Shown: positions 1,030 to 56,051 of the stretch, piece after piece | Numbering within the stretch: position 1 is the stretch's first letter | How the letters are laid out: each line of letters begins with the position of its first letter | IMG/VR virus record: IMGVR_UViG_3300027985_000156 | Location: 1-56,220 of that record | Reading direction: 5' to 3' (one strand) | Length of the DNA: 56,220 bases | Source: a virus | Notes under the pieces: model-generated | What the model saw: only the letters and a program-made list of their open reading frames with translations | Database searches by the model: none | What the model was told of the DNA's origin: nothing | Translations under genes and position numbers: made by a program

Positions 1030-1032
1030 ATT

Positions 1033-1047: not shown

Positions 1048-1062
1048 TTACGGAGAATACAA

Positions 1063-2965: not shown

Positions 2966-2982
2966 GCTATCTGGAGAATACT

Positions 2983-3641: not shown

Positions 3642-3648
3642 GAGAGTT

Positions 3649-5404: not shown

Positions 5405-5405
5405 T

Positions 5406-6418: not shown

Positions 6419-6426
6419 GGAGTTGA

Positions 6427-8765: not shown

Positions 8766-8767
8766 CA

Positions 8768-10710: not shown

Positions 10711-10997
10711 ATGTCCGTGTAGGTTCGTACCAACTCCGAGTCATCGATAGTATGAACTTTGGAGTCGAGAAGCTTGCCACCGTCGAGAAAGGAAAGATGG
10801 TAGGCCAGGAGTATGTCAGCACTTGCAACTACTTTCCTGACTTCTCAGGTGCATTCAAGTTTTTCATTGGATGTCTTGAGAAAGAAGCATTCAAATACAC
10901 CAGTGACCTTGATGATTTCATGACGAAATACTCTGAGTTGCTGGAGACAACATTCAAGAGAATGGAGGGCTATGAGAAAACTAGCAACGATTCGTAA
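10707..10997 (+). CDS. Hypothetical protein (96 aa)
   Basis: Not recognised. A beta-rich N-terminus (MNVRVGSYQLRVIDSMNFGV) is followed by a helical C-terminus. It overlaps the RNA ligase gene by 26 bases. Confidence 0.65.
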   Translation: MNVRVGSYQLRVIDSMNFGVEKLATVEKGKMVGQEYVSTCNYFPDFSGAFKFFIGCLEKEAFKYTSDLDDFMTKYSELLETTFKRMEGYEKTSNDS

Positions 10998-12078
10998 GAT
11001 CAATGAACTCTTTCCGATCAAAGGTGCCGACCGTATTGAGGGTGCGGTAATCGATGGTTGGGAATGTGTTGTAAAGAAGGGTGAGTTTGAAGTAGGTGAC
11101 CTGTGTGTCTACTTTGAAATCGACAGTATCCTCCCGGTTCGTCCGTGGTCTGAGTTCATGGAGCCACGCAAGTATCGTGTGAGGACTGCAAAGTTCAAAG
11201 GCCAAATAGCACAAGGTCTGGCTCTTCCGGTGAGTATGGTGTTTCCTGAGACTCGCACAGTAGCTCTCGATGAGGATGTTACTGAGGAACTTGGTGTACG
11301 GAAGTATGATCCGGAAGCTGAGAAAGAGCAGAAGGTGTACGACAACCCACGTAAGAAACGTCCGTGGTGGGCGAAGTCTCGTATAGGTATGAAGATCTAC
11401 CTTTGGCTCCATCCTCGCCTCAGCAAAAAAGGATGGCCTGAGTGGTTGCCTAAGACGGATGAGACACGAGTGCAGAACATCCGTAACCTTGAGAAGCATA
11501 TTGCAAACCGCTATCTGTATGCTACTGAGAAGCTGGATGGTCAGTCGTTCACCATGTACTACAACCATAACGAGAAGGCTGGTTTGTTCAAGAAGGGTGT
11601 AGGTGGTGTCTGCTCTCGTAACATCCACTATCCCTTCCGGTGCGACAACAACTGGTGGAACTATGCAGTTGACAGCGGTGACTACAACCGCTTCGAGAAC
11701 TACTGCAAAACCTCTGGTAAAAGTCTAGCCCTCCAGGGTGAGTTGATTGGTCCTGGAATCCAAGGAAACAAGTATAACCTTTCGACCAACGAGATGTACG
11801 CCTTCAACGTATGGGATATTAATAAACAAAAGTATCTCAACCTTGAAGAGAAGCTTATTGTTCTCAGTGAGGTAGGTATTGTTCATGTGCCTTTTCTGAG
11901 TGATCCTAATGATTTAACTACACCTAAAGAGTTCCTTGAGTTTGCTGATGGTCCTTCGTTGTTCGTCAGCACAGAACACCCAAGGGAAGGTGTGGTCATT
12001 CGTGATTGGGATGATGATGGATTCTCCTTCAAGGCAATTAGTAATCAGTTTCTTCTACTTGAGGATTCATTCGAATGA
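10972..12078 (+). CDS. RNA ligase with N-terminal OB domain (Rnl5/DraRnl-like)
   Basis: Predicted ATP-dependent RNA ligase of 368 aa that seals nicked RNA through ligase-AMP and RNA-adenylate steps. The first about 110 residues (IKGADRIEGAVIDGWECVV, VGDLCVYFEIDSILP) are an OB-like domain typical of the Rnl5 type. The nucleotidyltransferase domain has motif I TEKLDGQSF with Lys about 187, motif III/IIIa LALQGELIG, motif IV REGVVIRD and motif V FSFKAISNQFLL. With RtcB at 16048, the phage has two RNA ligases of unrelated mechanism, suggesting repair of cleaved tRNA or other RNA. GGAGGG lies just before the GC-ATG. Confidence 0.9.
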   Translation: MRKLATIRKINELFPIKGADRIEGAVIDGWECVVKKGEFEVGDLCVYFEIDSILPVRPWSEFMEPRKYRVRTAKFKGQIAQGLALPVSMVFPETRTVALDEDVTEELGVRKYDPEAEKEQKVYDNPRKKRPWWAKSRIGMKIYLWLHPRLSKKGWPEWLPKTDETRVQNIRNLEKHIANRYLYATEKLDGQSFTMYYNHNEKAGLFKKGVGGVCSRNIHYPFRCDNNWWNYAVDSGDYNRFENYCKTSGKSLALQGELIGPGIQGNKYNLSTNEMYAFNVWDINKQKYLNLEEKLIVLSEVGIVHVPFLSDPNDLTTPKEFLEFADGPSLFVSTEHPREGVVIRDWDDDGFSFKAISNQFLLLEDSFE

Positions 12079-12173
12079 TATTCAACTTGATATGTCTCTT
12101 TATAATAGTGGCGTGTGCTGCGGCTAACGTATGTTTGTGGGGTAAGATAAACAAGAGACTAGGTAAGATATAA
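12075..12173 (+). CDS. Small membrane peptide (32 aa)
   Basis: Not recognised. MIFNLICLFIIVACAAANVC is one hydrophobic helix, followed by a basic tail (KINKRLGKI). The ATG overlaps the RNA ligase stop (ATGA), which favours real translation; it is too short for standard gene callers. Confidence 0.5.
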   Translation: MIFNLICLFIIVACAAANVCLWGKINKRLGKI

Positions 12174-12183
12174 TGGAGACACT

Positions 12184-12273
12184 ATGGAGATTCTAATTTA
12201 TCCGGTAATCTTTGTCATGACAGGTTTAGGTTGTGTAGCCTTTGCTTGTGCTTGGAAGATCTTTACCAGCTAA
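12184..12273 (+). CDS. Small membrane peptide (29 aa)
   Basis: Not recognised. This is a single hydrophobic helix (LIYPVIFVMTGLGCVAFACA) with GGAGA five bases before the ATG. It is the last frame before a terminator-like hairpin. Confidence 0.45.
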   Translation: MEILIYPVIFVMTGLGCVAFACAWKIFTS

Positions 12274-12280
12274 GGCGCAT

Positions 12281-12320
12281 AAGAGGGGCTTGTGTTCTTA
12301 GGAATGCACGCCCCTTATTT
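12281..12320 (+). terminator. Terminator-like hairpin before RNR
   Basis: The stem AAG(A)GGGGC ... GCCCCTT is followed by ATTT. The stem is GC-rich but the U-tract is weak, so termination is probably partial. It lies between the small membrane peptide and the RNR gene. Confidence 0.4.
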
Positions 12321-12331
12321 CGTGGAGGTTT

Positions 12332-14281
12332 ATGAGTTATATTGACCAACAAATGTCACGGTATATTCACCTGTCAAAGTATAGCCGGTGGTTACCTGAT
12401 GTAAAACGAAGGGAAACCTGGGAGGAAACTGTAGACCGCTTGATTAACTTCTGGCGTGGAAGGTTCGGCGATGTGTTAGGCGAGGATCTTTTTGTCGAAC
12501 TTCGACAATCTACCGTCAACCTGGGAGTCATGCCTTCCATGCGTACGTTGATGACCGCTGGTCCTGCACTTGATCGTGACGAGGCTGCTGGTTTCAACTG
12601 TGCTGGTGCTGGCATCAATCATCTACGGTACTTCGATGAGATCTTCTACCTTCTCATGTGTGGTACTGGTGTTGGCTTTAGTGTCGAATCTAAGTATGTC
12701 TCTCAACTACCTACGATCTCTGAAGATTTCCATCCGACTGAGACTGTTATCCGAGTGCATGACTCGAAGATCGGTTGGGCTAAAGGTCTGAAACAACTGA
12801 TCTCTCTACTTGTCAATGGTGAGATTCCTACGTGGGATCTTAGCTACATCCGTCCCGCTGGTGCCCGACTGAAGACTTTCGGTGGACGTGCATCCGGTCC
12901 TGAACCACTGGACAAACTGTTCAAGATGGTAGTAAAAATCTTCACTAACTCTGCCGGTCGTAAGCTTACGCCGCTTGAGGTACATGACCTTATCTGCTGG
13001 ATTGCTATGACGGTTATCGTCGGTTCGGTTCGTAGGTCAGCCTGTATCTCCATCTCTGATCTCATGGATATGGCGATGGCCCGTGCTAAGACTGGAGAGT
13101 GGTGGAAGACTTATGAGGAAGGTGGGCAGGAGCAACGGAAGCTTTCGAATAACTCTGCTGCCTACTACATCAAGCCAGATGTTGTCGCATTCAACAAAGA
13201 GTTCATGAATCTCTTCAAGAGCTACAGCGGTGAGCGTGGGATTGTCAACAAGACTGCACTTAAGAAAAAGGCTGAAGCTTGTGGTCGTGAGTGGTCAGGT
13301 GATTATCTGTTGAATCCTTGCGGCGAAGCAATCCTCCGGGACACTGGTGGTTTCTGTAATCTGTCAGAGGTTGTCATTCGTCCTGAAGATACCTTCGAAG
13401 ACCTCAGACGTAAGGTGAGATTGGCTACCATCTATGGAACGCTTCAGTCGAGTCTTACGAAGTTCCGGTATCTGCGTAAGGTATGGCAGCGTAACCAGGA
13501 GGAGGAACGCCTACTTGGTGTTAGCCTTACCGGTATCATGGATCATCCGATTATGAGTGGTGCCCGTGAACCTGATGCTGATTTCCTGGAAGGATCTGAA
13601 GAGTATCTCATATTTGATCTCTCTGATGTATTGGCAAACCTCAGGGCCGAGGCTCAACTCGTAAACCAAGATCTTGCAGATGTCCTTGGTATACCTTATG
13701 CCAAACAGATTACACTGGTCAAACCTTCAGGAACTGTATCACAACTTTGTGGGACTTCCTCAGGCATTCATCCTCAGTATGCCCCGTACTATCTACGGCG
13801 TGTAACTCAGGACAACAAAGATCCACTAACGGATCTGATGATAGCTCAAGGTATCCCACATAAACGTGGCGATGACAAGACTTGGTTTAGTTTCCCAATC
13901 GCTGCTCCTGAGAGTACCAAGGTGTTCGCAAGTAACCTCGATCCTATTGATGCCTTAGAGCTTTGGAAGACCTACAGTGACCACTGGTCAGATGGTAACC
14001 CAAGCTGCACCATCTACTACCGTGACAACAACTTCTTTGAGGTGATGTCCTGGGTATACAAGAACTTCGATGACATTGGTGGCTTGAGTTTCTTCCCGTT
14101 GTCTGATGGTATCTATGATAAAGAGACTCAACCGTACCTGCCGATTACAAAAGAAGAGTATGAGGCTGCTGTTGAGGCTTTCCCTAAGGATATTAATTGG
14201 GATATGACTGGTCTCGAAGAAGAGGACAACACTACAGGTATGCAGGAGTATGCTTGTGCTGGAGATAAGTGCTCATTATGA
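12332..14281 (+). CDS. nrdJ: Class II (adenosylcobalamin-dependent) ribonucleotide reductase
   Basis: Reduces ribonucleotides to deoxyribonucleotides for phage DNA synthesis, using coenzyme B12 and no second subunit. At 649 aa it resembles the monomeric Lactobacillus-type RTPR. FNCAGAGINH (about residue 90) supplies one redox Cys. NPCGEAIL (about 328) has the thiyl-radical Cys and catalytic Glu, CNLSEVV the partner Cys. LVKPSGTVSQLCGTSSGIHP is the phosphate-binding loop, and the C-terminal CAGDKC matches the Cys-x4-Cys shuttle pair. GGAGG precedes the ATG. Class II use implies a host that makes or takes up B12. The stop overlaps the next small gene. Confidence 0.95.
   Translation: MSYIDQQMSRYIHLSKYSRWLPDVKRRETWEETVDRLINFWRGRFGDVLGEDLFVELRQSTVNLGVMPSMRTLMTAGPALDRDEAAGFNCAGAGINHLRYFDEIFYLLMCGTGVGFSVESKYVSQLPTISEDFHPTETVIRVHDSKIGWAKGLKQLISLLVNGEIPTWDLSYIRPAGARLKTFGGRASGPEPLDKLFKMVVKIFTNSAGRKLTPLEVHDLICWIAMTVIVGSVRRSACISISDLMDMAMARAKTGEWWKTYEEGGQEQRKLSNNSAAYYIKPDVVAFNKEFMNLFKSYSGERGIVNKTALKKKAEACGREWSGDYLLNPCGEAILRDTGGFCNLSEVVIRPEDTFEDLRRKVRLATIYGTLQSSLTKFRYLRKVWQRNQEEERLLGVSLTGIMDHPIMSGAREPDADFLEGSEEYLIFDLSDVLANLRAEAQLVNQDLADVLGIPYAKQITLVKPSGTVSQLCGTSSGIHPQYAPYYLRRVTQDNKDPLTDLMIAQGIPHKRGDDKTWFSFPIAAPESTKVFASNLDPIDALELWKTYSDHWSDGNPSCTIYYRDNNFFEVMSWVYKNFDDIGGLSFFPLSDGIYDKETQPYLPITKEEYEAAVEAFPKDINWDMTGLEEEDNTTGMQEYACAGDKCSL
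12493..12507. repeat. Palindrome site, centre ACT (in RNR)
   Basis: Exact TGTCGAACTTCGACA in the RNR N-terminal region, frame VELRQ. Confidence 0.95.
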
Positions 14282-14394
14282 TTGTTGACTATATTTTCTT
14301 AGGACTCATTGGTATGCTCGCACTATGCCTTATAGGTATTTTAGTAAATGAACTTATCTATGATGCAAAGATGCACAAGTATGATTGGGTATGA
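14278..14394 (+). CDS. Small membrane peptide (38 aa)
   Basis: Not recognised. One TM helix (YIFLGLIGMLALCLIGILV), then a charged tail. The ATG overlaps the RNR stop and its own stop overlaps the next ATG (ATGA at both ends), supporting coupled translation. Confidence 0.5.
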   Translation: MIVDYIFLGLIGMLALCLIGILVNELIYDAKMHKYDWV

Positions 14395-14558
14395 CGCAAG
14401 AAAGATATTGGGAGCTTGAGATGAAAGGTGGTATACTTACAGAGCAGGAGATGTACGAAGGTTGGCACTTCTGCTCTGATTGGGGTTATATGTTAGTTGG
14501 TCCTGGTATGCCTGAACTTAAAACCTGTACTTGTCGAACAATTCCAAAGGAGAAATGA
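14391..14558 (+). CDS. Small Cys-rich protein (55 aa)
   Basis: WHFCSDWGYMLVGPGMPEL followed by TCTC resembles a short family of phage proteins with a C-x2-W/D...PGxPE...C-x-C pattern, possibly zinc-binding. No function is known to me. Overlaps on both sides indicate an operon gene. Confidence 0.55.
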   Translation: MTQERYWELEMKGGILTEQEMYEGWHFCSDWGYMLVGPGMPELKTCTCRTIPKEK

Positions 14559-14559
14559 T

Positions 14560-14658
14560 ATGGCAAGCCACCCAAAACTTAAAGTGTACAAGGAGGAACT
14601 AAATGACCATAAGACACTTACAGTACCTAAACTATCGATACAAAGGATTGTGGCATGA
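14560..14658 (+). CDS. Possible small protein (32 aa)
   Basis: MASHPKLKVYKEELNDHKT... starts two bases after the previous stop with AAGGAG upstream and overlaps the next start by four bases. It competes with a better-signalled frame at 14603, so only one of the two may be real. Confidence 0.4.
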   Translation: MASHPKLKVYKEELNDHKTLTVPKLSIQRIVA

Positions 14659-14662
14659 CTGA
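14603..14662 (+). CDS. Possible small protein, alternative frame (19 aa)
   Basis: AAGGAGG lies seven bases before this ATG, the best ribosome site in the segment. The product [19 protein letters not shown] ends in a YRYKG motif like that of several tiny phage proteins. It overlaps the 14560 frame. Confidence 0.35.
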   Translation: MTIRHLQYLNYRYKGLWHD

Positions 14663-14864
14663 GTTCGCAAGAGCTATGCAGAATTTGATGGATCTTGGTT
14701 ATGCAGTAACTGTAACTAAGGTTGATGGTGGATTGTATGAGGGTATCGTGTATAATGATGATGGATCTAAGACCTTATACGCAGGGTCTTGGAGAGGTGT
14801 CTTAAGAAAACTTGCGTACTTCGTCAGATACCAGGAGGTGAAGGATGCCGTTGAAAAAGGGTAA
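14655..14864 (+). CDS. Hypothetical protein (69 aa)
   Basis: Not recognised. A helix ([15 protein letters not shown]) is followed by beta strands ([18 protein letters not shown]). Overlaps on both sides show it is part of the coupled run of small genes between RNR and endolysin. Confidence 0.65.
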
Positions 14865-14991
14865 GTCTAATAAGGTAATCTCGGAGAACATTGCTACCGA
14901 GATGTCACACGGTAAACCTCAGAAGCAAGCGGTTGCTATTGCTCTCTCAAAAGCAGGTAAGAAACGAAAGACTCAGAGGAGGAAAAAGTAA
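14845..14991 (+). CDS. Conserved small basic phage protein (48 aa)
   Basis: [20 protein letters not shown]...[18 protein letters not shown] is the pattern of a widespread small basic phage protein, often annotated only as a conserved hypothetical. Lys/Arg content suggests nucleic acid binding; its role is unknown. GGAGG precedes it, and its stop overlaps the endolysin start. Confidence 0.75.
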
Positions 14992-15506
14992 TGGATCTTA
15001 TTGATTTCATGGAACAACTTTCGAAGCAGGAGAACGCCCCATTAGTAGTTGCTGATCCTGAATCTATTGTCATGCCTAACAGAGCACCTGAAGATGGTGG
15101 TGGGAGTGACATTGGTTTTGGTCATAAGCTTACCAGTAACGAGAATGCCTTTGGTATGCTCTATGGTCTCGACTGGACTGATGGTATTACCAGCCTTGAG
15201 GCTATGTACGTTATGATGATCGACTTCATCAAACACTACTTCATCGCTCGTGATCTTGTGGGGATGTCGAACTTCGACAAAATGCCTCAGCTTGCTCAGT
15301 TGATCCTGGCTGAGTATAGCTTCAACGGTGTCTTGAATACCTTCCCTCGATTCCGGAATGCTATCATCACCCGTAACAAGACCGAAGCACTCACGCAATA
15401 CAAACGGTACTGGACTGTTGGTGGTGAGAGGAAGGAACTCACAAGACGCAACGAGTGGACCTTTGGTTTGCTTATGAAACTTGTGGAGTCTGGTTGGCTT
15501 AGATGA
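14991..15506 (+). CDS. Probable endolysin, lysozyme-like
   Basis: Predicted peptidoglycan-cleaving enzyme of 171 aa. GGGSDIGFGHKLTSNEN near residues 37-53 resembles the GxxTIGxGHxxT segment of T4-type lysozymes. YSFNGVLNTFPRFRNAI...RRNEWTFGLL in the second half resembles the helical lobe ending in RR..E..L. An N-terminal Glu of the usual E-G/E-S type is probably E24 (PESIV), but that is uncertain. No signal peptide, so release would need a holin; candidates are 17570, 19559 or 9765. A palindrome site (MSNFDK) lies mid-gene. Confidence 0.6.
   Translation: MDLIDFMEQLSKQENAPLVVADPESIVMPNRAPEDGGGSDIGFGHKLTSNENAFGMLYGLDWTDGITSLEAMYVMMIDFIKHYFIARDLVGMSNFDKMPQLAQLILAEYSFNGVLNTFPRFRNAIITRNKTEALTQYKRYWTVGGERKELTRRNEWTFGLLMKLVESGWLR
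15265..15279. repeat. Palindrome site, centre ACT (in endolysin)
   Basis: Exact TGTCGAACTTCGACA, frame MSNFDK. Confidence 0.95.
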
Positions 15507-15673
15507 CAAAAGATGAGGCTGTAGCTCTTAAGACGTTTAAGAACTACTGTAGCTGTGGAGGATATGCTATCCACATGAATGGTAGACCAGAGAGTCAACC
15601 TCACATGCCTTGGTGTCCTCAGTATGAAGAGTATGCTGAGTGGTACAGAGCTATACACTCGGAGGATAAGTGA
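15503..15673 (+). CDS. Small Cys/His protein (56 aa)
   Basis: YCSCGGYAIHMNG then HMPWCPQYEEYAEWYRAIHS. The C-x-C...C spacing and conserved aromatic residues suggest a small metal-binding protein. It overlaps the endolysin stop (ATGA) and the next gene. Function unknown. Confidence 0.6.
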   Translation: MTKDEAVALKTFKNYCSCGGYAIHMNGRPESQPHMPWCPQYEEYAEWYRAIHSEDK

Positions 15674-15873
15674 TCTGCTATAGAGACAGAACCTTCTGCC
15701 AGTTTTGGAAGGAGTGTGACAAGGGGGTAGCGTGCGAAAGTGCGTATACCCCTTCTGTTTTTCAAGAGGCACTATCCTGGTGGGGTTCAGAGAATCCACC
15801 GATTGCCTTGTTTGTAGAACCACCACCTTGCTTTAATGCAAAACCTATTGAGGTGATAGATGATCGATATTGA
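15670..15873 (+). CDS. Small Cys-rich protein (67 aa), GTG start
   Basis: CYRDRTFCQFWKECDKGVAC gives four cysteines with regular spacing, possibly a zinc site. The C-terminal half is Pro-rich. GTG at 15670 follows GGAGG and overlaps the previous stop. Function unknown. Confidence 0.6.
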   Translation: MICYRDRTFCQFWKECDKGVACESAYTPSVFQEALSWWGSENPPIALFVEPPPCFNAKPIEVIDDRY

Positions 15874-16045
15874 ACTAGAGTGTGATGACTGTGGTGCGGA
15901 TGTAGAGTATGAGCTTGAGTATCGTCGGCATGACATCCGTATTAAAGTGAAACCGTGTAGCTTCTGTATGAACAGCACCTATGCTGAAGGTGAGTCCGAT
16001 GGTTACCAGAAAGCGCAGGATGAAGTGTTGTCAGGAGATGATTGA
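15860..16045 (+). CDS. Small zinc-ribbon protein (61 aa)
   Basis: CDDCGADVEYE and CSFCMNSTYAEGESDGY form a CxxC...CxxC zinc ribbon, with an acidic C-terminus. Function unknown. Its reading frame ends just before the RtcB ATG. Confidence 0.65.
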   Translation: MIDIELECDDCGADVEYELEYRRHDIRIKVKPCSFCMNSTYAEGESDGYQKAQDEVLSGDD

Positions 16046-16047
16046 TT

Positions 16048-17136
16048 ATGCAACCGTATATCTTATGTAACGATCTTGACCCGAAGACTGAGAATCAATT
16101 CTACGAAGCAATCAAGCAACCTTTCGTAACTAAGGCAGCACTACTTCCAGATGCTCATCTTGGATATGATGCACCTATTGGTTCTGTCATTGAGACTAAA
16201 GGTGTCGTGTGTCCATCCTGGGTAGGCTATGACATCGGGTGCGGTGTTGAGGCAATCTGCTTTAACATTGACTACCTTAAGATAATGGATAAACTTCCTG
16301 AGATTGTGTCTGGAATACGTGCCACTCTTTCTGACCGTGAGTATCGTCGTGAACAGTTTGGTGCGGACAGGATCTATAAACTGCTGACACAGGATGGTAA
16401 AGAAATCTTTGATAGGCGTGGAGCAGCTAAGCAGCTTGGCACTATCGGATCTGGAAACCACTTCGTAGACCTATCGTATTCTGAAAGAACCGGCTCGTTG
16501 TATTGTGTTGTTCACTCTGGATCTCGTGGTCTTGGTCATGGTATCGGTGAGCACTATATGTCGAACTTCGACAAATTCCTTGGGATGGATTCACCAGAAG
16601 CTAAAGACTATTTCAAGGATGCATTCGCTGCCACTATGTTCGCTCATTACAGTCGTGGTGCAATGGTTGATTGTGTCCAGGCAGTTGTTGAGTCTGCTAT
16701 CGGGAAGTACCTATTCATTGACGAGTCTCGTACAGCAAGACGTAACCACAATACCCACCACATTACCTTGGATGGATCTGGTGTAGTTCACCGAAAAGGA
16801 ACGATCCACGCCTACAAAGGTTGCCTGTGTCCTATCCCTGGAAACATGGCCTATGGTACGGTTCTTGTCCGTGGTATGGGTAATCCGGATACACTCGAAT
16901 CCTGTAGTCATGGTGCAGGTAGGTCGAAGAGTCGGGGAGAAGCTAAGCGGTCGGCTGATGAAATTGAGTTCAAAGGGCAGATGGGTGACATCATTGTTCC
17001 TGGAGAACTTATGAGTTATGCTGACGAGAATCCTAACGGTTACAAGGATATGGCTGAAGTTATGGGCCAGCAGTACAACATAACCTGTACCTACACTGAT
17101 ACACTTTTACCGCTTGCGGTAATTAAGGGGAAATGA
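16048..17136 (+). CDS. rtcB: RtcB-type RNA 3'-phosphate/5'-OH ligase
   Basis: Predicted Mn2+/GTP-dependent ligase joining RNA 3'-phosphate or 2',3'-cyclic phosphate ends to 5'-OH ends, the ends left by tRNA-cleaving toxins. At 362 aa it is shorter than cellular RtcB (about 400-480). Key motifs are intact: SWVGYDIGCGVEAI (metal Cys), GSGNHFVDL, VVHSGSRGLGHGIG, HNTHH, and the C-terminal SHGAGRSKSR with the His that is guanylylated. The ATG at 16048 (AGGAGA ten bases before) is preferred over a TTG six bases upstream. Together with the RNA ligase at 10972 and the tRNA-like gene at 49566 it suggests RNA repair against host defence. Confidence 0.93.
   Translation: MQPYILCNDLDPKTENQFYEAIKQPFVTKAALLPDAHLGYDAPIGSVIETKGVVCPSWVGYDIGCGVEAICFNIDYLKIMDKLPEIVSGIRATLSDREYRREQFGADRIYKLLTQDGKEIFDRRGAAKQLGTIGSGNHFVDLSYSERTGSLYCVVHSGSRGLGHGIGEHYMSNFDKFLGMDSPEAKDYFKDAFAATMFAHYSRGAMVDCVQAVVESAIGKYLFIDESRTARRNHNTHHITLDGSGVVHRKGTIHAYKGCLCPIPGNMAYGTVLVRGMGNPDTLESCSHGAGRSKSRGEAKRSADEIEFKGQMGDIIVPGELMSYADENPNGYKDMAEVMGQQYNITCTYTDTLLPLAVIKGK
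16559..16573. repeat. Palindrome site, centre ACT (in rtcB)
   Basis: Exact TGTCGAACTTCGACA, frame MSNFDK, just after the HSGSRGLG motif. Confidence 0.95.
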
Positions 17137-43131: not shown

Positions 43132-43140
43132 CCCACCCCA

Positions 43141-43184
43141 TATAAGAAAACACCTGATTCCAAAGTTACGCTCGGAACCGGTGT
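43141..43184 (-). terminator. Hairpin plus T-run just before the late arm (attenuator candidate)
   Basis: On the - strand ACACC / GGTGT and TTCC / GGAA form an interrupted stem (internal loop) followed by TTTTCTTATA. It ends about nine bases before the terminase small-subunit ATG. A terminator in the leader of the whole late operon could hold it off until antitermination or promoter switching. Confidence 0.5.
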
Positions 43185-43240
43185 CGCTAGTAATTAGATA
43201 AAGCTATCGCCTTGTAAGGCCCTTGTCTTACTTTATATCT

Positions 43241-43304
43241 ACTTGAGAATCACTTTAGTTCTACTTGGGAACCACTTTAGTAATCAAGCACTTGGATACT
43301 TTAG
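43241..43304. repeat. Tandem near-repeats ACTTGRGAAYCACTTTAGT
   Basis: Copies at 43241-43259 and 43263-43281 differ at two positions and are offset by 22 bp (two helical turns). A shorter third copy (ACTTGGATACTTTAG) starts at 43290. They could be operators or iterons upstream of the late arm. Confidence 0.7.
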
Positions 43305-43560
43305 AATACAGTAAGAGAGTTTGGCCCAAGATTATGCGTGAAATCGGTAGGTTACTAGGGCGCACAGTGGGCACCTCGCGCGGCCAGGGGGCATCGCCAG
43401 CCAACCTAGGAATCGCTCTCATTCTCACGAAAGCCCCCACCCCCTTGCGAAACCATCGAAAACCCAAGAATACCCTAGGTGTAAGGTGCTGGAATTACAG
43501 GGGAAATCCTAAGGTGCTAGGGTTGTGCATTGGTTCGGGTGTTGCTAGGGTTCGCGGGTG

Positions 43561-43620
43561 TTATCCCTAGATATCCCTAGATATCCCTAGATACCCCTAG
43601 ATACCCCTAGACACCCTTAG
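43561..43620. repeat. Six 10-bp iterons (ATAYCCCTAG)
   Basis: Six units in exact 10-bp register: TTATCCCTAG, ATATCCCTAG twice, ATACCCCTAG twice, ACACCCTTAG. The reverse complement CTAGGG also occurs upstream at about 43470, 43519 and 43553. Near-helical phasing suggests bound protein or intrinsic bending. Confidence 0.9.
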
Positions 43621-43630
43621 ATACCACAAG

Positions 43631-43657
43631 CAACCCACGCAACCCACGCAACCCTTG
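43631..43657. repeat. Triple 9-bp repeat CAACCCACG
   Basis: CAACCCACG, CAACCCACG, CAACCCTTG in direct tandem, ten bases after the 10-bp iterons. Confidence 0.85.
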
Positions 43658-43709
43658 TTTTCCGCTATAGTGTATTCACTAGAATGCACTGGTTTATACC
43701 TTGGTTCCT

Positions 43710-43938
43710 CTCTTGTGCCGTCCAGAGTCCTCTTGTGGAGGCAAGGTAATTTCCTTCCATAGCATTATTGCCAGTTTCGAGTGGTTCCTATAGAGGATAG
43801 CACTCTATCGAATACTCTCTGATCTTGTTTCGAGTAGTCCTCTCTTGTGTTGTGTATGGTACTTTCGTGAGTTAGTGAGAATAATACCTATTACCATCTT
43901 TTAGTCCTTCTCTTGTGTTCTCTTGTGTTCTCGCTTGT
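43710..43938. repeat. Scattered CTCTTGTG copies
   Basis: CTCTTGTG occurs at 43710, 43730, 43842, 43910 and 43920, with a variant (CGCTTGTG) at 43931. The last copies form the tandem TCTTGTGTTC pair. The motif resembles the tail (TTTTCTTGTG) of the late-arm terminators. Confidence 0.6.
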
Positions 43939-44013
43939 GTTTTCTAGTGGATAATATTTTTCACCTGTTTTTTCTCTTTCGTGGTTAGATATAAAACACA
44001 AGAAAGCTTTTGA

Positions 44014-44084
44014 TTTTTCTTTTTTCTTTTCTTTAGAGGGAGGGTTTGAAAGGGAGGGAGACCTTTCTTTTCTTTTTTCTTTTT
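44014..44084. repeat. 71-bp mirror repeat (H-DNA/triplex candidate)
   Basis: A 21-nt pyrimidine arm T5-C-T6-C-T4-C-T3 (44014-44034) is exactly mirrored by T3-C-T4-C-T6-C-T5 (44064-44084). Inside lie two mirrored purine arms, AGAGGGAGGG (44035-44044) and GGGAGGGAGA (44052-44061), around TTTGAAA. Only CC at 44062-44063 breaks the symmetry. Such mirror homopurine/homopyrimidine tracts can form intramolecular triplexes. Confidence 0.9.
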
Positions 44085-44098
44085 GTCGATCTTCGACA
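44084..44098. repeat. Palindrome site, centre TCT (adjoins mirror repeat)
   Basis: Exact TGTCGATCTTCGACA beginning at the last T of the mirror repeat. Confidence 0.95.
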
Positions 44099-44233
44099 TT
44101 ATCCCCTTGTTTCCCTTGTTTCCTTGTATTTCCGCTAGTTTATCCTTTGTTGTCTTTTTGTTGTCCTCTGTTTTCCTCCTTGTTCTTTTCTGTTTTCTAT
44201 CGTCATTCCACGCATTTACCTACTACCTACCGC

Positions 44234-44283
44234 ATTTCCACACAAACTTGTAAAAACCGCCATATTTCCACACAAACTTGTAA
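44234..44283. repeat. 20-bp direct repeat, 30-bp period
   Basis: ATTTCCACACAAACTTGTAA occurs at 44234-44253 and 44264-44283. A partial third copy (ACAAACTTGT) is near 44352. Possible iteron or operator; the ACAA..TTGT core is a partial inverted repeat. Confidence 0.85.
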
Positions 44284-44433
44284 GACTATTTTTCTATCGT
44301 GATTTCACATACTTACGCATCATTTGAGAATCATTCTCCTGTTTAGGCTTTACAAACTTGTGATTTTCCTTATCATGCCCATTTTTGACCTAAAATTTAT
44401 TTATGTAATCATTCCGGCATCTTAAACGTCATT

Positions 44434-44462
44434 TTCAAAACTGGCACGGGTGATGCTATAGT
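44434..44462 (+). promoter_or_regulatory. Promoter candidate (sigma-70; also fits sigma-54)
   Basis: TTCAAA, 17 bases, TATAGT reads as a sigma-70 promoter toward the + arm. The spacer also contains TGGCACGGGTGATGCT, with GG-N10-GC in exact sigma-54 spacing and one mismatch to the -12 element. Sigma-70 is the simpler reading. Confidence 0.45.
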
Positions 44463-44742
44463 TAGGGCACAAGCGAGGCAAACGGCGCCAAGCTAACTAA
44501 GACCAAGAAAAACGATGGAGGATAAAAAAAAAGCTTGCAGGACTCGAAAGCATCTTGTAAGGTGCTTGGGACGGTTCGGGATAAACTTGAACCACAACGG
44601 GTGGAGGTAAGCTTAAATATGATCGCTCGCCAGGAACGACTGGCACCTTGCAAAGCATCACTTGAAACCTTGGAGTTTAAAACGGGGCACACGACAGCGA
44701 GACCTAGCAAGGGAAAAAAGCGAAACAAAGAAAAAAAAAAGG

Positions 44743-44771
44743 TTGACAAGCTACCGGAAAGCTTGTAGGAT
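44743..44771 (+). promoter_or_regulatory. Sigma-70 promoter candidate for the + arm
   Basis: Perfect -35 TTGACA, 17-base spacer, -10 TAGGAT (4 of 6). It lies upstream of the first early gene. The spacer holds an inverted repeat (CAAGCT / AGCTTG), a possible operator. Confidence 0.6.
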
Positions 44772-45008
44772 GGCCTGAACGGTTCGGAAATTTTCGAGCT
44801 AAAGACTAACCCTGATCTTTACATAGCACCTTGACTCCCTGATTGTAGGGGTAGATTGTCAAGACATTACCCGAAACGGCGTGACGGGCGGCAGGTCGCA
44901 AACGGATTCCCGGAGAATCTACCTAATGAGCGAAACGGCGGCGGTATTGTTTCCAGGTTTCAAGCGGACCACTCAAGGTACTCTTGCAAGCTGAAAACAA
45001 ACCGATCC

Positions 45009-45023
45009 TGTCGAACATCGACA
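45009..45023. repeat. Palindrome site, centre ACA (first early gene leader)
   Basis: Exact TGTCGAACATCGACA, 27 bases upstream of the first early ATG. Confidence 0.95.
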
Positions 45024-45050
45024 AATAAACCCAAGACGAAAGGGAAAACA

Positions 45051-45260: not shown

Positions 45261-45268
45261 TTTGAATA

Positions 45269-45317
45269 CTACAGGAAGCATTAGGAGTCTAATGCTTCCG
45301 ATAGTGGTCAAAAGACC
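45269..45317 (+). promoter_or_regulatory. Leader hairpin element, copy 1
   Basis: CTACA, then an 11-bp perfect hairpin GGAAGCATTAG / CTAATGCTTCC (45274-45299), then GATAGTG and a second hairpin GGTC-aaaa-GACC. It lies between two early genes, upstream of an AAGGAG ribosome site. The flanks CTACAGG and RATAGTG recur in copies 2-4, while the stem differs with compensating changes. Confidence 0.8.
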
Positions 45318-45349
45318 ATAACTTAACCCTCAATTAAGGAGAAAAAATC

Positions 45350-46198
45350 ATGGCAATTTCAAAAGCAACACTACAGAGTAAGGTTATCCAGGAAGAGACC
45401 AAGAAAAATGTGGAGCATCGAAACTTGGAAGGTCTCACGATTGCAATCTTGAAATCCTACCTTGCAGATTTGGAAGAAATGGAGATTCAAGGTGAACCTT
45501 CCGAACCTGTCGAAAATGTCGAACCTTCCGAACCTTCCGAACCTTCTGAACCTTCTGAACCTTCCGAACCTGCCGAACCTTCCGAACCTTCCGACGAAAA
45601 GCCGAAACCGGAAAACGAGGAAACCTTGTTGGTCCGTATGAGCATCTTAGGTGCTGAAATGTCCGGAAATATATGGGGAAGGACTGGAAAGGTACTTGCT
45701 CAGTCAAAAGGATTGTTTGACGGGGTGAAACCCAAGGATATGGCAAAGAATTTCAGTAAGTTGCTGGATACCAACGTCCGGCAAGAGTTGATCCCTGAAC
45801 AGGGCCTTAACCGGAAGGGTGAAGTAATCGATCTTCGCAAGAAAGGTGGAGCTATCAAGTGGTCATCTTGGGAAAAGACCGCTCGTATGGTCCAGAATTG
45901 CAGCACGATTTTCAAGGGCATCGATCTTTTAGGGTGGGAAAAATGCTTTCCATACGGAGTCCTGATTCCAAGATCTGCAATGGACAAGTTGATAAAAGAG
46001 GTGGAGGATGAAAAACCCGGAGAAGCCCCGGAAGATACCGTTGCACGGTGCCTCGAAATGTGCCAGAAAAAACTTCCTGATGTGGAGTCCTTGGAGGGCA
46101 TGGCAAAGATCAGCGAATTCCTTAGCTATGTGAACGACCTCTTTGCTGAGAGAGTTATGGAGTTGAAGGATAAAGAGGCAGAGGCAGCAAAAGCTTAA
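45350..46198 (+). CDS. Early protein with Ser-Glu-Pro repeat linker (282 aa)
   Basis: Not recognised. An N-terminal helical part (about 45 aa) is joined by a low-complexity linker of nine or so SEP tripeptides (about residues 50-85) to a C-terminal domain of about 190 aa (SILGAEMSGNIWGRTGKVLA; AIKWSSWEKTARMVQNCS; FPYGVLIPRSAMDKLIKEVE). The linker should be extended and acidic. AAGGAG precedes the ATG, behind leader hairpin copy 1. Abundant early expression and host takeover are plausible guesses. Confidence 0.75.
   Translation: MAISKATLQSKVIQEETKKNVEHRNLEGLTIAILKSYLADLEEMEIQGEPSEPVENVEPSEPSEPSEPSEPSEPAEPSEPSDEKPKPENEETLLVRMSILGAEMSGNIWGRTGKVLAQSKGLFDGVKPKDMAKNFSKLLDTNVRQELIPEQGLNRKGEVIDLRKKGGAIKWSSWEKTARMVQNCSTIFKGIDLLGWEKCFPYGVLIPRSAMDKLIKEVEDEKPGEAPEDTVARCLEMCQKKLPDVESLEGMAKISEFLSYVNDLFAERVMELKDKEAEAAKA
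45508..45522. repeat. Direct-repeat variant of the palindrome half-site
   Basis: TGTCGAAAATGTCGA: the half-site TGTCGA twice in the same orientation with the same 3-bp gap as the palindrome. The 17-mer CCTGTCGAAAATGTCGA recurs at 54037. Here it encodes PVENVE at the start of the linker. Confidence 0.85.
45521..45593 (+). repeat. GAACCTTCC 9-bp tandem repeat
   Basis: About eight 9-bp units (GAACCTTCC/T, one GCC variant) encoding Ser-Glu-Pro. Such a minisatellite can change length by slippage. Confidence 0.9.
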
Positions 46199-46208
46199 CG
46201 ATTGAATG

Positions 46209-46260
46209 CTACAGGATGCCTTGGGTTTCTCAAGGCATCCAATAGTGGTCAATAGTGGCC
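46209..46260 (+). promoter_or_regulatory. Leader hairpin element, copy 2
   Basis: CTACA, 10-bp hairpin GGATGCCTTG / CAAGGCATCC (46214-46240), AATAGTG, then a second short hairpin GGTC / GGCC (46247-46260). It is followed by a palindrome site and AAGGAG. Confidence 0.85.
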
Positions 46261-46270
46261 TTACTTAGAA

Positions 46271-46285
46271 TGTCGATCTTCGACA
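46271..46285. repeat. Palindrome site, centre TCT (early leader)
   Basis: Exact TGTCGATCTTCGACA, between leader hairpin copy 2 and the next ribosome site. Confidence 0.95.
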
Positions 46286-46303
46286 AATTCAAAAGGAGCA
46301 AAC

Positions 46304-46765
46304 ATGAAACGTGAATACTTCAAGACGATTTCTACCGGTGACATTAAAGGGCTTTTCCCCGAAGATGCAAAATATATCGCAATGGACCGTACCGGGGAGA
46401 TTTTCTGCTACTACAGAAAGCCGGAATGCAATGGTTCCGCGTGGCTTGGGGGGAGTATAACCAACCTTCATCTCCGGATTCCTAACCTGGAACAACTCCT
46501 GGAAAACCCGGTATGGACTGAATCCCTCTTTTCGGTGGATGTTACCGAAAGTGAGATGAAGGTATACAAGATCATTGATCTCCCGGACTTCAAGCATGAT
46601 CAGGTTATTCTGGTCCGGAACTACACTCACGAAGAGTGGCAACCTCGGTACTTCAAAGAGTTTAACGATGCCGGACAAGCCTGTGCATACAACAGTGGCA
46701 AGTCTTCACTGACGGTAAGCAAGAGCTATCACACGACAACTTGGAAATACTTTAAAGCCCTTTAA
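46304..46765 (+). CDS. Early protein, paralog family A (153 aa)
   Basis: Not recognised, but a clear paralog of the gene at 47562: both carry KxxxxTG-type starts, a MDRTGEIFCYYRKPECNGSA / KDRGGEVYVYQQKPELDGSC segment and a related C-terminal half (VYKIIDLPDF..DQVILVRNYT / VYKEITRPYI..DEVVYLIRDG). Preceded by hairpin, palindrome and AAGGAG. Confidence 0.75.
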   Translation: MKREYFKTISTGDIKGLFPEDAKYIAMDRTGEIFCYYRKPECNGSAWLGGSITNLHLRIPNLEQLLENPVWTESLFSVDVTESEMKVYKIIDLPDFKHDQVILVRNYTHEEWQPRYFKEFNDAGQACAYNSGKSSLTVSKSYHTTTWKYFKAL

Positions 46766-46768
46766 TTG

Positions 46769-46815
46769 CTACAGGGTGCCTTGGAGTCCAAGGCATCCGA
46801 TAGTGCTTAAAGCAC
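46769..46815 (+). promoter_or_regulatory. Leader hairpin element, copy 3
   Basis: CTACA, 11-bp hairpin GGGTGCCTTGG / CCAAGGCATCC with one G-U pair (46774-46798), GATA, then hairpin GTGC / GCAC (46803-46815). It begins four bases after the preceding stop. Confidence 0.87.
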
Positions 46816-46826
46816 ATAACCGAAAA

Positions 46827-46841
46827 TGTCGATCTTCGACA
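46827..46841. repeat. Palindrome site, centre TCT (early leader)
   Basis: Exact TGTCGATCTTCGACA. With the preceding A it makes an ATG in frame with the true start at 46862. Confidence 0.95.
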
Positions 46842-46861
46842 AATCACAAAAGGAGAACACC

Positions 46862-47248
46862 ATGCAAGCTCAAAAACACCCCTGCTTTATCTTCGCTGTA
46901 AATCATAGCACTCAGGAGCAGGATCTCAAGTACATCCAGAGTATGCTTCCGGAAGGGGTAAAAGTAATTGAGTGCCTCGGTTCTTGGAAAGGGGAGCAGG
47001 AGTATTCCTATATCGTTTCAGCAGCCCACGTTCTTCCGGTCTTCCTTATGGCAAAGGAAAGGAACCAAGAGTCCGTGCTGTACCTGGACAACGAACGGTC
47101 GGCAACCTTGGTATATGGTTTCCAGGATGATCAAGAGCTTGTTGAGGAACCGGTAGGGACTCTTCGTGAGGTATCAGAACAGGAGGCAATGAAACACGAT
47201 GGATGGACCAAGCGCATCGACAGCGGGCAATACTTCGTCGTAGAATAG
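46862..47248 (+). CDS. Early hypothetical protein (128 aa)
   Basis: Not recognised. Alternating strands and helices (PCFIFAVNHSTQEQDLKYIQ; GVKVIECLGSWKGEQEYSYI; ESVLYLDNERSATLVYGFQD). AAAGGAG lies eight bases before the ATG at 46862; the in-frame ATG at 46826, inside the palindrome, lacks a ribosome site. Confidence 0.7.
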   Translation: MQAQKHPCFIFAVNHSTQEQDLKYIQSMLPEGVKVIECLGSWKGEQEYSYIVSAAHVLPVFLMAKERNQESVLYLDNERSATLVYGFQDDQELVEEPVGTLREVSEQEAMKHDGWTKRIDSGQYFVVE

Positions 47249-47361
47249 GCATCTATATACCGGAGTGGCTTGCTCCACTTATGGCTCAAAGGGAGTGGAG
47301 GATTGCCAACAGTCCTTCAGCATACATAACAAATTTAGAAGAGGATGAAGGAGAGGAACGT

Positions 47362-47445
47362 ATGCCACGGCATCAACAGACAATAGTGTGTCCTATAAAC
47401 GGACGCTTTACAATCGATAGCAGAAGGAGAGCTATAATCGGTTGA
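47362..47445 (+). CDS. Possible small basic peptide (27 aa)
   Basis: MPRHQQTIVCPINGRFTIDS plus RRRAIIG. AAGGAGAGG lies six bases before the ATG. A longer in-frame version from 47281 lacks a ribosome site. It fills the 300-bp gap between the 128-aa gene and leader copy 4. Confidence 0.4.
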   Translation: MPRHQQTIVCPINGRFTIDSRRRAIIG

Positions 47446-47448
47446 CCG

Positions 47449-47487
47449 CTACAGGGTGCCTTGGGTCTCTCAAGGCATCCGATAGTG
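47449..47487 (+). promoter_or_regulatory. Leader hairpin element, copy 4
   Basis: CTACA, 10-bp hairpin GGGTGCCTTG / CAAGGCATCC (47454-47480) with one G-U pair, then GATAGTG. The second hairpin is degenerate here. It is followed by a palindrome site and AAAGGAG. Confidence 0.83.
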
Positions 47488-47517
47488 TTCAATGGTGGGT
47501 ACGATAACAATTTAAAA

Positions 47518-47532
47518 TGTCGAAGATCGACA
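47518..47532. repeat. Palindrome site, centre AGA (early leader)
   Basis: Exact TGTCGAAGATCGACA upstream of the 47562 gene; the ATG it forms at 47517 is in frame with the true start. Confidence 0.95.
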
Positions 47533-47561
47533 AACGAACGACAACCAAAGGAGAACAACAA

Positions 47562-48032
47562 ATGAAAAAGCTTATCGCAACCGTAAACGCTGGCCTCTTC
47601 CTCTTCGACCCTGAGCGTTCCACCTTCTATATGGCAAAAGATCGTGGTGGAGAAGTCTACGTTTACCAGCAAAAACCAGAACTTGATGGAAGTTGTTGGA
47701 CTGGTGGTGAGGACTACTGCAAGGTTTCTAACTACTTTCCTCGCCTTGCCGAACTCCTTAATGATGTCGACTATGAGAATTCCCTCCGGATTATTTCGTA
47801 CAACTTCGATTCTGAAACCATTAGTGTATACAAGGAAATCACCCGCCCTTACATTGCCGAAGATGAGGTTGTGTACCTTATCCGTGACGGTATCACCGAC
47901 TATTCCCGGAAGTACCACTTCAAGCAATGGGCTGATGATGGTCGGGCTGATGTATGGTTCAACGGTCGCTCTTCCGAGACTGCCCTAAACGAAGATGACT
48001 TCTGTACCGTTGATAATGTGGAACGTGCGTAA
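47562..48032 (+). CDS. Early protein, paralog family A (156 aa)
   Basis: Paralog of the 46304 product (KDRGGEVYVYQQKPELDGSC; VYKEITRPYIAEDEVVYLIR). Function unknown. AAAGGAG precedes ATG 47562. Both copies carry the same leader set-up, suggesting duplication of leader plus gene. Confidence 0.75.
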   Translation: MKKLIATVNAGLFLFDPERSTFYMAKDRGGEVYVYQQKPELDGSCWTGGEDYCKVSNYFPRLAELLNDVDYENSLRIISYNFDSETISVYKEITRPYIAEDEVVYLIRDGITDYSRKYHFKQWADDGRADVWFNGRSSETALNEDDFCTVDNVERA

Positions 48033-48047
48033 ACCCTAGTTGTCACA

Positions 48048-48098
48048 AGGTATCTTGGGCCTAAACTCAAGATACCTGATGATGCTTAGGGTAGCATC
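48048..48098 (+). promoter_or_regulatory. Leader hairpin element, copy 5 (divergent)
   Basis: A 10-bp hairpin AGGTATCTTG / CAAGATACCT (48048-48077), then GAT and a second hairpin GATGCT / AGCATC (48081-48098), then a palindrome site and AAAGGAG. The sequence differs from copies 1-4 but the layout is the same. Confidence 0.75.
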
Positions 48099-49565: not shown

Positions 49566-49638
49566 TCTACTGTCGTCTAAAGGGAGGATTCTGGTCGTCT
49601 TGTACCAGCGGATGTGGGTTCGAATCCCACCAGTAGAC
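49566..49638 (+). tRNA. tRNA-like gene with 8-nt anticodon loop (Lys-CUU if U33 rule holds)
   Basis: Acceptor TCTACTG / CAGTAGA (7 bp). T8 C9. D-arm GTCT-AAAGGGA-GGAT. Anticodon stem CTGGT / ACCAG around the 8-base loop CGTCTTGT. Variable CGGAT. T-arm GTGGG-TTCGAAT-CCCAC. All are in canonical register except one extra loop base at 49596. Taking the T at 49598 as U33 gives anticodon CTT (Lys). The acceptor pairs three further bases outward (TGG with CCA at 49638-49640), making 10 bp, so the encoded CCA is base-paired in the precursor. It may be a functional tRNA, a frame-altering tRNA or a decoy for tRNA-cleaving defences. Confidence 0.65.
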
Positions 49639-49720
49639 CAATCAATTAATCTGATAACGTCCCTTCTGAGCGTGCAGAATGGTGGTAACTTAGGCACTTA
49701 CCTACTGTTCGAGTGACGTA

Positions 49721-54165: not shown

Positions 54166-54332
54166 TTATTAGAGTAGGTTTGCCGTACTTCCAGTGGACA
54201 AAGAAGTTATGTATACTTCCAAGGGTATTCAGGGATAAGAAATCAAATGCACATCACCTTGTGTTCCTACAGTATGTTGAACTGTACAAGGATATTGACG
54301 AGGTGTACTTCAGGGAATGTCAGGAGCAGTAG
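54162..54332 (+). CDS. Small protein between helicase and polymerase (56 aa)
   Basis: Not recognised. MIIRVGLPYFQWTKKLCILP then KKSNAHHLVFLQYVELYKDI. AGGAGG lies ten bases before the ATG. It overlaps helicase by four bases and polymerase by 16, so it is tightly coupled. A polymerase or helicase partner is possible. Confidence 0.6.
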   Translation: MIIRVGLPYFQWTKKLCILPRVFRDKKSNAHHLVFLQYVELYKDIDEVYFRECQEQ

Positions 54333-55874
54333 TATTCGATATTGAAGCAAATGGTTTCTATGACACGGTGTCTCAGTTGTTATGCATCGTGACTCATGAC
54401 CTGGAAACACAAGAACTGAAAGCGTTCCACGACACCAAGCTATACCCACGACACGGTAGTCTATCTGATGGACTGGCGTACTTGACCAGCTTCGAGTGTA
54501 TCATCGGTCACAACATCTTGACGTACGATGTACCTGTGCTTGTCAAGTTGTACCCTGAGCTTGCCGAAGTCTTAGATGACATCGGTGAGATTGACACTCA
54601 GAAGTTGTGCGAGATCTTATTCCCTGATGTCAAGAAGCAAGGCATCGAAGAGTGGGTGAAGATCTTAGGTCTACCTGATCCGAAGATCCAAGTGAGTGAC
54701 TTCTCGTACCTTTCGCAGAAGCTACTTAACAGATGCTTGGGTGATGTTAAGAACAACGTAGCACTGTATAACTATCTGATTAGACAGAAGAGATCGGAAG
54801 AACGTGGTGGTAACTCATTCAATGCCGCTATCAAACTGGAGCATGATGTCGCCAGATTACACTCGAAGCAAGAGATTCATGGGGTGTATTATGATGTGGC
54901 ACTTGCCCTCAAGACTGTCGATCAATTCACTGAGAAGATGAACGTGTTGGAAGCTAAGGTTACCGACCTTGCCCCACCGATCCTTACAATACCATCGTTG
55001 ACCAAAGAGAAGCAGAAGGATCTCCGGAAGGAGTGCCTTGAACCACTGTTCTCTGGCTATCTTACAGGACAAACGGCAAGTAAAAAGTCGAAGTTCGACA
55101 AAACAATCAACCCGTTCCTGAAGAGTGGTAAGCTCACATCTCAAGTTAGAGAATATTTTGGTGATGTTGAGGCCAATGTTAAGGGTCCGTTCTGCAAGGT
55201 GTCCTTTGAGTTGGAGGACTGGTACACTAAAGCATCCATCGATTACTTTGGCGAGGACTACATACGGAATGTAAAAGGTCCGTACAATAAGATCGAGATC
55301 AACCCGATCAACTGTTCAAGTGATACGCAGATCAAGGATTTCTTACTGAGTCTTGGTTGGGTTCCAATCGAGTACAACTATAGTAAGACTACCAATGAGC
55401 GTACGTCGCCGAAGCTGACTGAGGAATCCTTTGGAAGCTTGCCTCCTGGTTTAGGGCAGGACATTGCTGAGTTCCGTATCCTTCAGCATCGAAGGAGTTT
55501 AATAACCAACATCAAAGACCCGGAAAACAAAGGTGCCTTAAGCCATGTGCGTGAGGACCATCGTGTTCCGGCTGAAGCATTCACCTGTGGTACTCCAACT
55601 GCAAGGTATAGGCACAGCGGGGCAGTATGTAACATCCCACGACCTACCTCTAAGTATGGTAATGAAATCCGCAGGTTATATCGAGTAGCTCCTGGTCACC
55701 TACAGATAGGGATCGACCTCAGTGGTATTGAAGCCAGGATGCTTACCAATTTCTGCTACGAGTTTGAGGGTGGGCCTGAGTTTGCTGAGCTTGTCCTCAA
55801 TGGTGATTGGCATTCGGAGAACGCTAAGCTCTGGATGTGTGACAGAAACGATGCAAAGACAGAACTTTATGCGT
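54317..55874 (+). CDS. DNA polymerase, exon 1 (exonuclease, thumb and palm)
   Basis: Family A replicative polymerase, T7 gp5-like; 519 codons plus one base. The proofreading exonuclease has FDIEANGF (D8, E10), GHNILTYDVP (D71) and CLGDVKNNVALYN. The polymerase domain has TPTARYRHSGAVCNIPR, motif A IGIDLSGIEARML (about 463-475) and the start of motif B NDAKTELYA (T7 NAKTFIYG). The exon ends at T55874, where the group I intron begins; reading on gives a stop at 55985. Spliced to 536-1029 the protein is about 683 aa. Confidence 0.95.
55086..55100. repeat. Palindrome site, one mismatch (AGT centre)
   Basis: AGTCGAAGTTCGACA in polymerase exon 1, frame KSKFDK, in the thumb region. Confidence 0.85.
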
Positions 55875-56051
55875 TAAGATTAGCGCATGTAAAACCCATT
55901 GAAAACAGGGAAAGTCTAAATCGTTACATTACCATTTATGTTTTAAGAGATATAGTTGGTATGGGCGACAGGATAACCCTGTGCTAAACCAGTAGCGTAG
56001 TTCAATGGAGGATGTATGTATATACAAACAAATAAGAAACAAGAGGATACC

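Follow-up and report, generated by a model that had tools for sequence, protein, structure and literature searches.

A short RNA hairpin with an almost invariant CA/GA internal loop follows five early genes in the window (the whole 56,220-nt stretch of viral DNA analysed here), and the same unit lies behind genes of unrelated phages. Its structure, its covariation, its action as sense-strand RNA, its placement after stop codons, its spread among phages and its likeness to the early RNase III sites of T7 and T3 were all computed from sequence. We believe that the elements are probably RNase III processing sites of the T7 type that together make up one family, and at which cleavage is predicted.

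Five copies of one hairpin lie between early genes

The five copies span positions 45267 to 48084 between early genes, all on the plus strand, which is the coding strand (Table 1). A first-pass annotation had placed a hairpin in each of these five spacers, and one is present at each. The conserved unit is a single hairpin, composed of a lower stem of 4–9 bp, a 2x2 internal loop 5'-CA/GA-3' and an upper stem of 9–12 bp. In copies 1–4 the annotated flanks CTACAGG and RATAGTG are present and, as CUACAGG and RAUAGUG, enclose a stem of 11–12 bp. The suggestion that CTA and TAG extend this stem past a 2x2 internal loop was borne out: in the alignment of the window copies CUA and UAG pair beneath the loop, and all five copies have a lower stem. 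The constant feature of the window copies is the CA/GA loop (CA/AA in copy 2) over a lower stem of 4–5 bp, which in copy 4 can be extended across the stop codon (UGA/UCA). Copy 5 had been set apart by the annotation; its sequence is indeed divergent, but it follows the same plan, with divergent stems around an identical loop (GUCA-CA-AGGUAUCUUG...CAAGAUACCU-GA-UGAU).

Compared with dinucleotide shuffles, all five copies folded with z scores of –4.4 to –6.3. The model R2, whose training set included copies 1, 2, 3 and 5 with copy 4 left out, recovered the five copies at E values of 6e-10 to 2e-7, and its next best match in the window had an E value of 0.4. Loops in the R2 input were shortened to 4 nt for a gapless alignment, so that bit scores of long-loop members are conservative. 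Two covariance models run over the whole 56 kb gave no further convincing copy. The gene that separates copies 3 and 4 encodes an S-adenosylmethionine lyase-like protein and is an early gene of anti-restriction type, comparable to T3 gene 0.3.

Table 1. Hairpin copies and associated features in the window
Feature	Position	Strand	Description	Context
Copy 1	45267..45306	+	lower stem UACUA/UAGUG, upper stem 11 bp, loop GAGU	6–7 nt past TAA of upstream gene (ends 45260)
Copy 1, internal loop	45272–45273 / 45300–45301	+	CA / GA	
Copy 1, second hairpin	45304..45319	+	GUGGUC-AAAA-GACCAU, z –3.2	
Copy 2	46207..46247	+	lower stem UGCUA/UAGUG, internal loop CA/AA, upper stem 10–12 bp	8 nt past TAA (ends 46198)
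Copy 2, second hairpin	46247..46260	+	weak, z –0.9	
Copy 3	46767..46805	+	lower stem UGCUA/UAGUG, internal loop CA/GA, upper stem 11 bp	1–2 nt past TAA (ends 46765)
Copy 3, second hairpin	46803..46815	+	GUGCU-UAA-AGCAC, z –3.1	
S-adenosylmethionine lyase-like gene	46862..47248	+	PF23780, E 3.3e-11, above cut-off	between copies 3 and 4
Copy 4	47447..47487	+	lower stem CGCUA/UAGUG, internal loop CA/GA, upper stem 12 bp	1–2 nt past TGA (ends 47445) of small ORF
Copy 4, possible second hairpin	47485..47502	+	largely G-U pairs, unsupported, z +0.3	
Copy 5	48041..48084	+	lower stem UGUCA/UGAUG, internal loop CA/GA, upper stem 12 bp; outer pairs ACCCUAG/UUAGGGU; R2 E 1.8e-7	8–9 nt past TAA (ends 48032)
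Copy 5, second hairpin	48081..48098	+	GAUGCU/AGCAUC, z –2.9	

The annotation had described a two-hairpin plan. Copies 1, 3 and 5 fit this plan, with support for the second hairpin at z about –3; copies 2 and 4 do not, and most relatives of the element have no second hairpin. The GUG of the copy 1 second hairpin doubles as the 3' strand of the lower stem; because it uses this GUG, the second hairpin competes with the lower stem. The earlier view that the element is not a terminator agrees with our scan, in which no terminator-like site was present on the plus strand at any of the five copies. We also rejected a CsrA site (ACAGGA occurs in some copies, but its GGA is not conserved and lies outside any loop) and a hammerhead core (CUGAUGA is present in copy 5 and absent from the other copies).

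The element is widespread in phages

A search for close relatives of the window phage found none, and DNA patterns therefore served to reach the wider family. Members were gathered by pattern scans of viral contigs combined with a folding filter; the initial pattern matches were mostly chance, and folding split true members from noise, yielding unrelated phages with the same hairpin unit. A model built from the first 14 members found further ones, with other lower stems, in the members' own records and in a Pantoea genome. The element occurs in more than 100 viral contigs, a 45 kb phage record carries three copies, and BLAST with one lambdoid copy returned 173 phage records. BLAST of the phage collection with the Pantoea and L132 elements returned nothing useful. 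HK022 (at 39686 and 39881) and HK97 carry two elements each, and P22, phi80, Sf6, mEp460, PhiR70_1 and Gally are further carriers. In SP6, which was outside the training set, two matches on the sense strand flank the ocr-like gene of the early region (E values of 8e-6 and 1.5e-5). Prophages of Pantoea and Erwinia carry the element as well, with seven in one Pantoea genome.

At an E value of 0.05, matches occurred in 7 of 198 Enterobacterales genomes and 13 of 398 Pseudomonadota genomes, the weakest of them probably by chance; the Bacteroidota control gave 2 of 198 genomes, both weak. A strict CA/GA scan at the same stringency found none in lambda, N15, epsilon15 or positions 500–7000 of T7, and the K-12 cryptic prophages Qin, DLP12, Rac and e14 hold no copy. 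Rfam (release 15) returned no family at the gathering score and only weak chance matches. STnc560 was rejected as such a match (21/55 bits). A literature search found no description of the CA/GA hairpin.

The HK022 copies bear on the idea, also raised in the first-pass annotation, that the element is an RNA polymerase-modifying, put-like antiterminator. HK022 has both put and the element, putL and putR are likewise phage RNA with two stem-loops, and the window copies have a two-hairpin look. However, the put regions at PL and PR of HK022 contain no CA/GA hairpin and share no sequence with the element, which lies elsewhere in that genome. Furthermore, put acts once, directly downstream of the early promoter (PMC9378689), whereas the CA/GA hairpin recurs gene after gene, and the second hairpin, on which the resemblance depends, is not conserved in relatives. 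We give this option hardly any credence.

The hairpin is positioned by the upstream stop codon

The element usually starts 0–9 nt past a stop codon. Twenty-eight of 34 elements started no more than 9 nt past the upstream stop codon, compared to 9% of random positions, and no comparable peak near stop codons appeared in the antisense direction. The same was seen in a pattern set of 46 stems, drawn from 120 contigs matching CATTACARRG...CYYGATAATG with upper-stem positions 4–9 left free: 32 of the 46 lay within 9 nt of the upstream stop codon, 17 of them at exactly 1 nt. Most of the remaining members sit further downstream, and those inspected (e.g. mEp460) come after an intrinsic terminator. 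Within the window, the stop codon is 2–9 nt upstream of each copy and the next ATG 43–74 nt downstream. Since the short, fixed distance is to the upstream stop and not to the next start, the element belongs to the preceding gene. What had been read as a leader before five genes is thus a gene-end element, a trailer after five genes.

Pairing is conserved over sequence, and the element acts as sense RNA

Inside the window alone the covariation signal is thin because copies 2–4 are nearly identical. Once relatives were added to the window copies the signal became strong, which upholds the annotation's claim that pairing is conserved over sequence. Among 17 diverse members, 15 of the 16 pairs changed on both sides and 96% of the cells paired; none of 500 shuffles showed covariation as good. 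The lower stem also varies with compensation, as seen in the members found by the 14-sequence model.

The non-canonical pairs identify the strand on which the structure is selected. At the upper-stem positions left free in the pattern, the 46 unique stems contained 201 Watson-Crick, 59 G-U, 3 A-C and 13 other cells. The excess of G-U over A-C has a sole explanation, that the hairpin functions as sense-strand RNA. In the Watson-Crick-only scan, the ratio of G-U (G-T) to A-C was 75:13 for CA/GA hairpins and about 1:1 for control loops. This indicates that the element acts as sense RNA.

These ratios, 75:13 overall against a background of about 1:1 and 59:3 in the pattern-anchored stems, argue against a DNA-level role, in which a REP-like palindrome or a recombination joint would be conserved as DNA and mark module boundaries. 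The REP and BIME sequences of enterobacteria are imperfect hairpins often found just past stop codons, and our element, like REP, often follows stop codons or terminators. In lambdoid phages (HK022, Sf6, mEp460, Gally and PhiR70_1), moreover, the DNA 3' of the hairpin is identical and the 5' half varies, resembling a mosaic joint. Yet the CA/GA strand follows the upstream gene, a strand bias that a DNA element would lack, and the phage-borne element differs from REP/BIME in its single orientation relative to the gene and in its RNA-type wobble bias. We therefore regard conservation at the level of DNA as very unlikely.

The CA/GA loop is nearly invariant

Among 46 unique hairpins with any 2x2 loop, CA/GA accounted for 22 and every other loop for at most two, in a count made over all loci gathered to that stage, at fixed stringency, without energy terms and with part of the loci chosen by sequence pattern. 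Copy 5 of the window, the two elements of HK022 and the second copies in L018, L132 and L181 are CA/GA finds independent of such selection. A later scan restricted to Watson-Crick pairs gave 64 CA/GA cases, some of them by chance, compared to 12–53 for control loops. Across phages whose stems differ, the loop is nearly invariant.

The element resembles the early RNase III sites of T7 and T3

We compared the element with the T7/T3 early sites R0.3, R0.5, R1, R1.1 and R1.3; the T3 sites are annotated as RNase III sites, and the T7 equivalents were located by sequence and folding. These, too, are intercistronic hairpins in early mRNA, with an upper stem of 9–11 bp, an internal loop and a short lower stem, and R0.5 and R1 of both phages begin directly after a stop codon, as the element usually does. 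The T7/T3 sites and the element share purines on the 5' strand at the base of the upper stem and a common order of upper-stem pairs, with C-G at position 6, A-U at 7 and often U-G at 8. When nine T7/T3 sites were compared with the element profile, 7 of 20,000 permutations of order and strand, and 32 of 20,000 of order only, were as good; as these nine sites are mutually homologous, this result amounts to roughly one test.

The flanks of R1, UUACAGG...CCUGAAUAG, are nearly alike to CUACAGG...CCGAUAG of the window, and R1 of T7 and T3 reads TACAGG...CCTGAATA, close to the window flanks. Within T7 and T3, R1 is the sole place with the pattern TACAGG...CC(N)GA(N)TA, and the 14-mer TCATCTGCGGGTGG is common to T7 R1 and an HK022 element. 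R1 was also the best match of R2 in T7, at a score that was not significant (10.8 bits; E 0.26 in T7 alone and 1.7 over five phages). T7 R1.1 has a second hairpin that shares bases with the lower-stem strand, an arrangement also present in window copies 1 and 3, and the downstream strand of R1.1 can fold alone. In SP6, a phage of the T7 group, the hairpins next to the ocr-like gene are of the CA/GA form itself. The two sets differ in their internal loops, which in T7/T3 are larger or different (e.g. ACUC/UAUGA, CUU/AGU and CUU/CGU) and in the element are almost invariably CA/GA. T7/T3 sites also keep U-G at position 5, whereas the upper-stem sequence of the element is free.

Probable processing by RNase III and the alternative of a loop-binding factor

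This likeness in architecture, pair order and position after the stop codon favours an RNase III processing site, the first option given in the annotation. In the early polycistronic message, the hairpin immediately 3' of each cistron's stop codon would then be a processing site, formed by a short AU-rich lower stem, the CA/GA loop and a 9–12 bp upper stem with C-G, A-U and U-G favoured at positions 6–8. Host RNase III would bind the stem, and the internal loop, by analogy with T7 single-cut sites, may restrict it to one cut near the 3'-side GA. The upstream mRNA would retain a 3'-end hairpin directly behind its stop codon, which could slow 3' exonucleases; the downstream mRNA would begin with the freed lower-stem strand, and in copies 1, 3 and 5 this strand is predicted to refold into the second hairpin. 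E. coli RNase III needs no more than a 12 bp stem and a tetraloop (PMC8708148), and mRNA is reported to be stabilised when a single RNase III cut leaves a 3' fold behind (PMC6993053).

Some observations run counter to processing by RNase III: R2 gave no significant match to the T7 sites, some members follow intrinsic terminators, not stop codons, and an RNA end reported in P22 lies off the predicted cut. The stable small RNA P22G from P22-infected cells has its reported 3' end inside the P22 element at 40316 (PMC13397905), the ends in that study being called by an 80% read rule. This end maps to the 5' strand of the upper stem near the loop. As a sign of RNase III cutting, it is suggestive only.

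The same P22G end would also suit a hairpin that RNase III leaves uncut, serving as a gene-end mRNA stabiliser or as a site for another host RNA-binding factor. Such a factor would read CA/GA, and the hairpin would either shield the preceding gene on its 3' side or affect translation termination or re-initiation. A loop that stays nearly invariant while the stems differ suits specific recognition, and the stop-codon rule places the hairpin at the front edge of the terminating ribosome. E. coli RNase III sites, moreover, are reported to have no strong consensus (PMC8708148), and the near-invariant CA/GA therefore exceeds the known needs of the enzyme, so that another reader may be meant. On the other hand, the element agrees with the T7/T3 sites in upper-stem pair order and in lying just past the stop codon, Rfam has no such binding motif and no candidate factor is known. 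We hold a stabilising or factor-binding hairpin to be a possible but rather unlikely account. Correspondingly, we can only tentatively suggest that the CA/GA hairpins are a class of their own among phage gene-end RNA elements, read loop-specifically by a host factor, be it RNase III that binds but does not cut or some other protein. On that doubtful supposition, the hairpin might be used by lambdoid, SP6-like and unrelated phages to set the fate of each cistron.

Either way, an RNA element with a fixed loop lies behind genes of well-studied phages (P22, HK022, HK97, phi80, Sf6 and SP6), yet it is missing from Rfam. A role as an RNase III site would make it a distinct, recognisable class across unrelated phages and provide a signature by which processing points could be searched for in phage messages; it would also mean that, in phages, an enzyme credited with no strong sequence consensus encounters a sharply conserved loop. 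Otherwise, a host factor not yet known would read the loop. The element also accounts for part of the reported P22G small RNA and for 'orf25' of P22, whose annotated start falls in the loop of the P22 element.

A palindrome distributed across the window

The palindrome TGTCGAWSWTCGACA occurs at 28 exact sites in the window, between positions 438 and 54083, and at two further sites with one mismatch; about 2 sites would be expected by chance with up to two mismatches allowed. Many of the sites lie 14–30 nt ahead of gene starts on either strand. The centre letters of the sites in the window showed no strand preference, and TGTCGAWSWTCGACA therefore looks like a candidate DNA operator read by a dimeric regulator.

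The hairpin in lambdoid phages

In Sf6, mEp460, Gally and PhiR70_1, the DNA 3' of the CA/GA hairpin (two stems separated by a 2x2 internal loop) is common to the loci, and the 5' half varies among the phages. This pattern, as read from sequence comparison, places the hairpin of lambdoid phages on a mosaic joint. At the P22 locus (L211, 40308–40352), the annotated start of 'orf25' falls in the hairpin loop, indicating that 'orf25' is probably not a gene.

Other features of the window

Just upstream of copy 4, the fourth of the window's five hairpin copies, ends a likely unannotated gene with a ribosome-binding site. The long stretch without clear genes separates the minus-strand terminase genes from the plus-strand early genes. 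The nine-base repeats encode a Pro-Ser-Glu run. The polynucleotide kinase match in the RNA repair set was weak. The frame for the DNA polymerase stops prematurely, some 230 bases short of the contig end, and closes in an unrelated tail, possibly reflecting an intron, insertion or frameshift.

Positions of features in the window
Feature	Position	Remarks
RNA repair set	6506-17136	RNA ligase, RtcB-like tRNA splicing ligase
Gene-poor stretch	43132-45050	
Ten-base tandem repeats	43562-43631	TATCCCTAGA; within gene-poor stretch
Nine-base tandem repeats	45493-45600	inside 282-aa gene following copy 1
Likely 27-aa gene	47363-47445	MPRHQQTIVCPINGRFTIDSRRRAIIG
tRNA gene	49566-49639	ARAGORN: four-base anticodon tctt
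DNA polymerase frame	54317-55987
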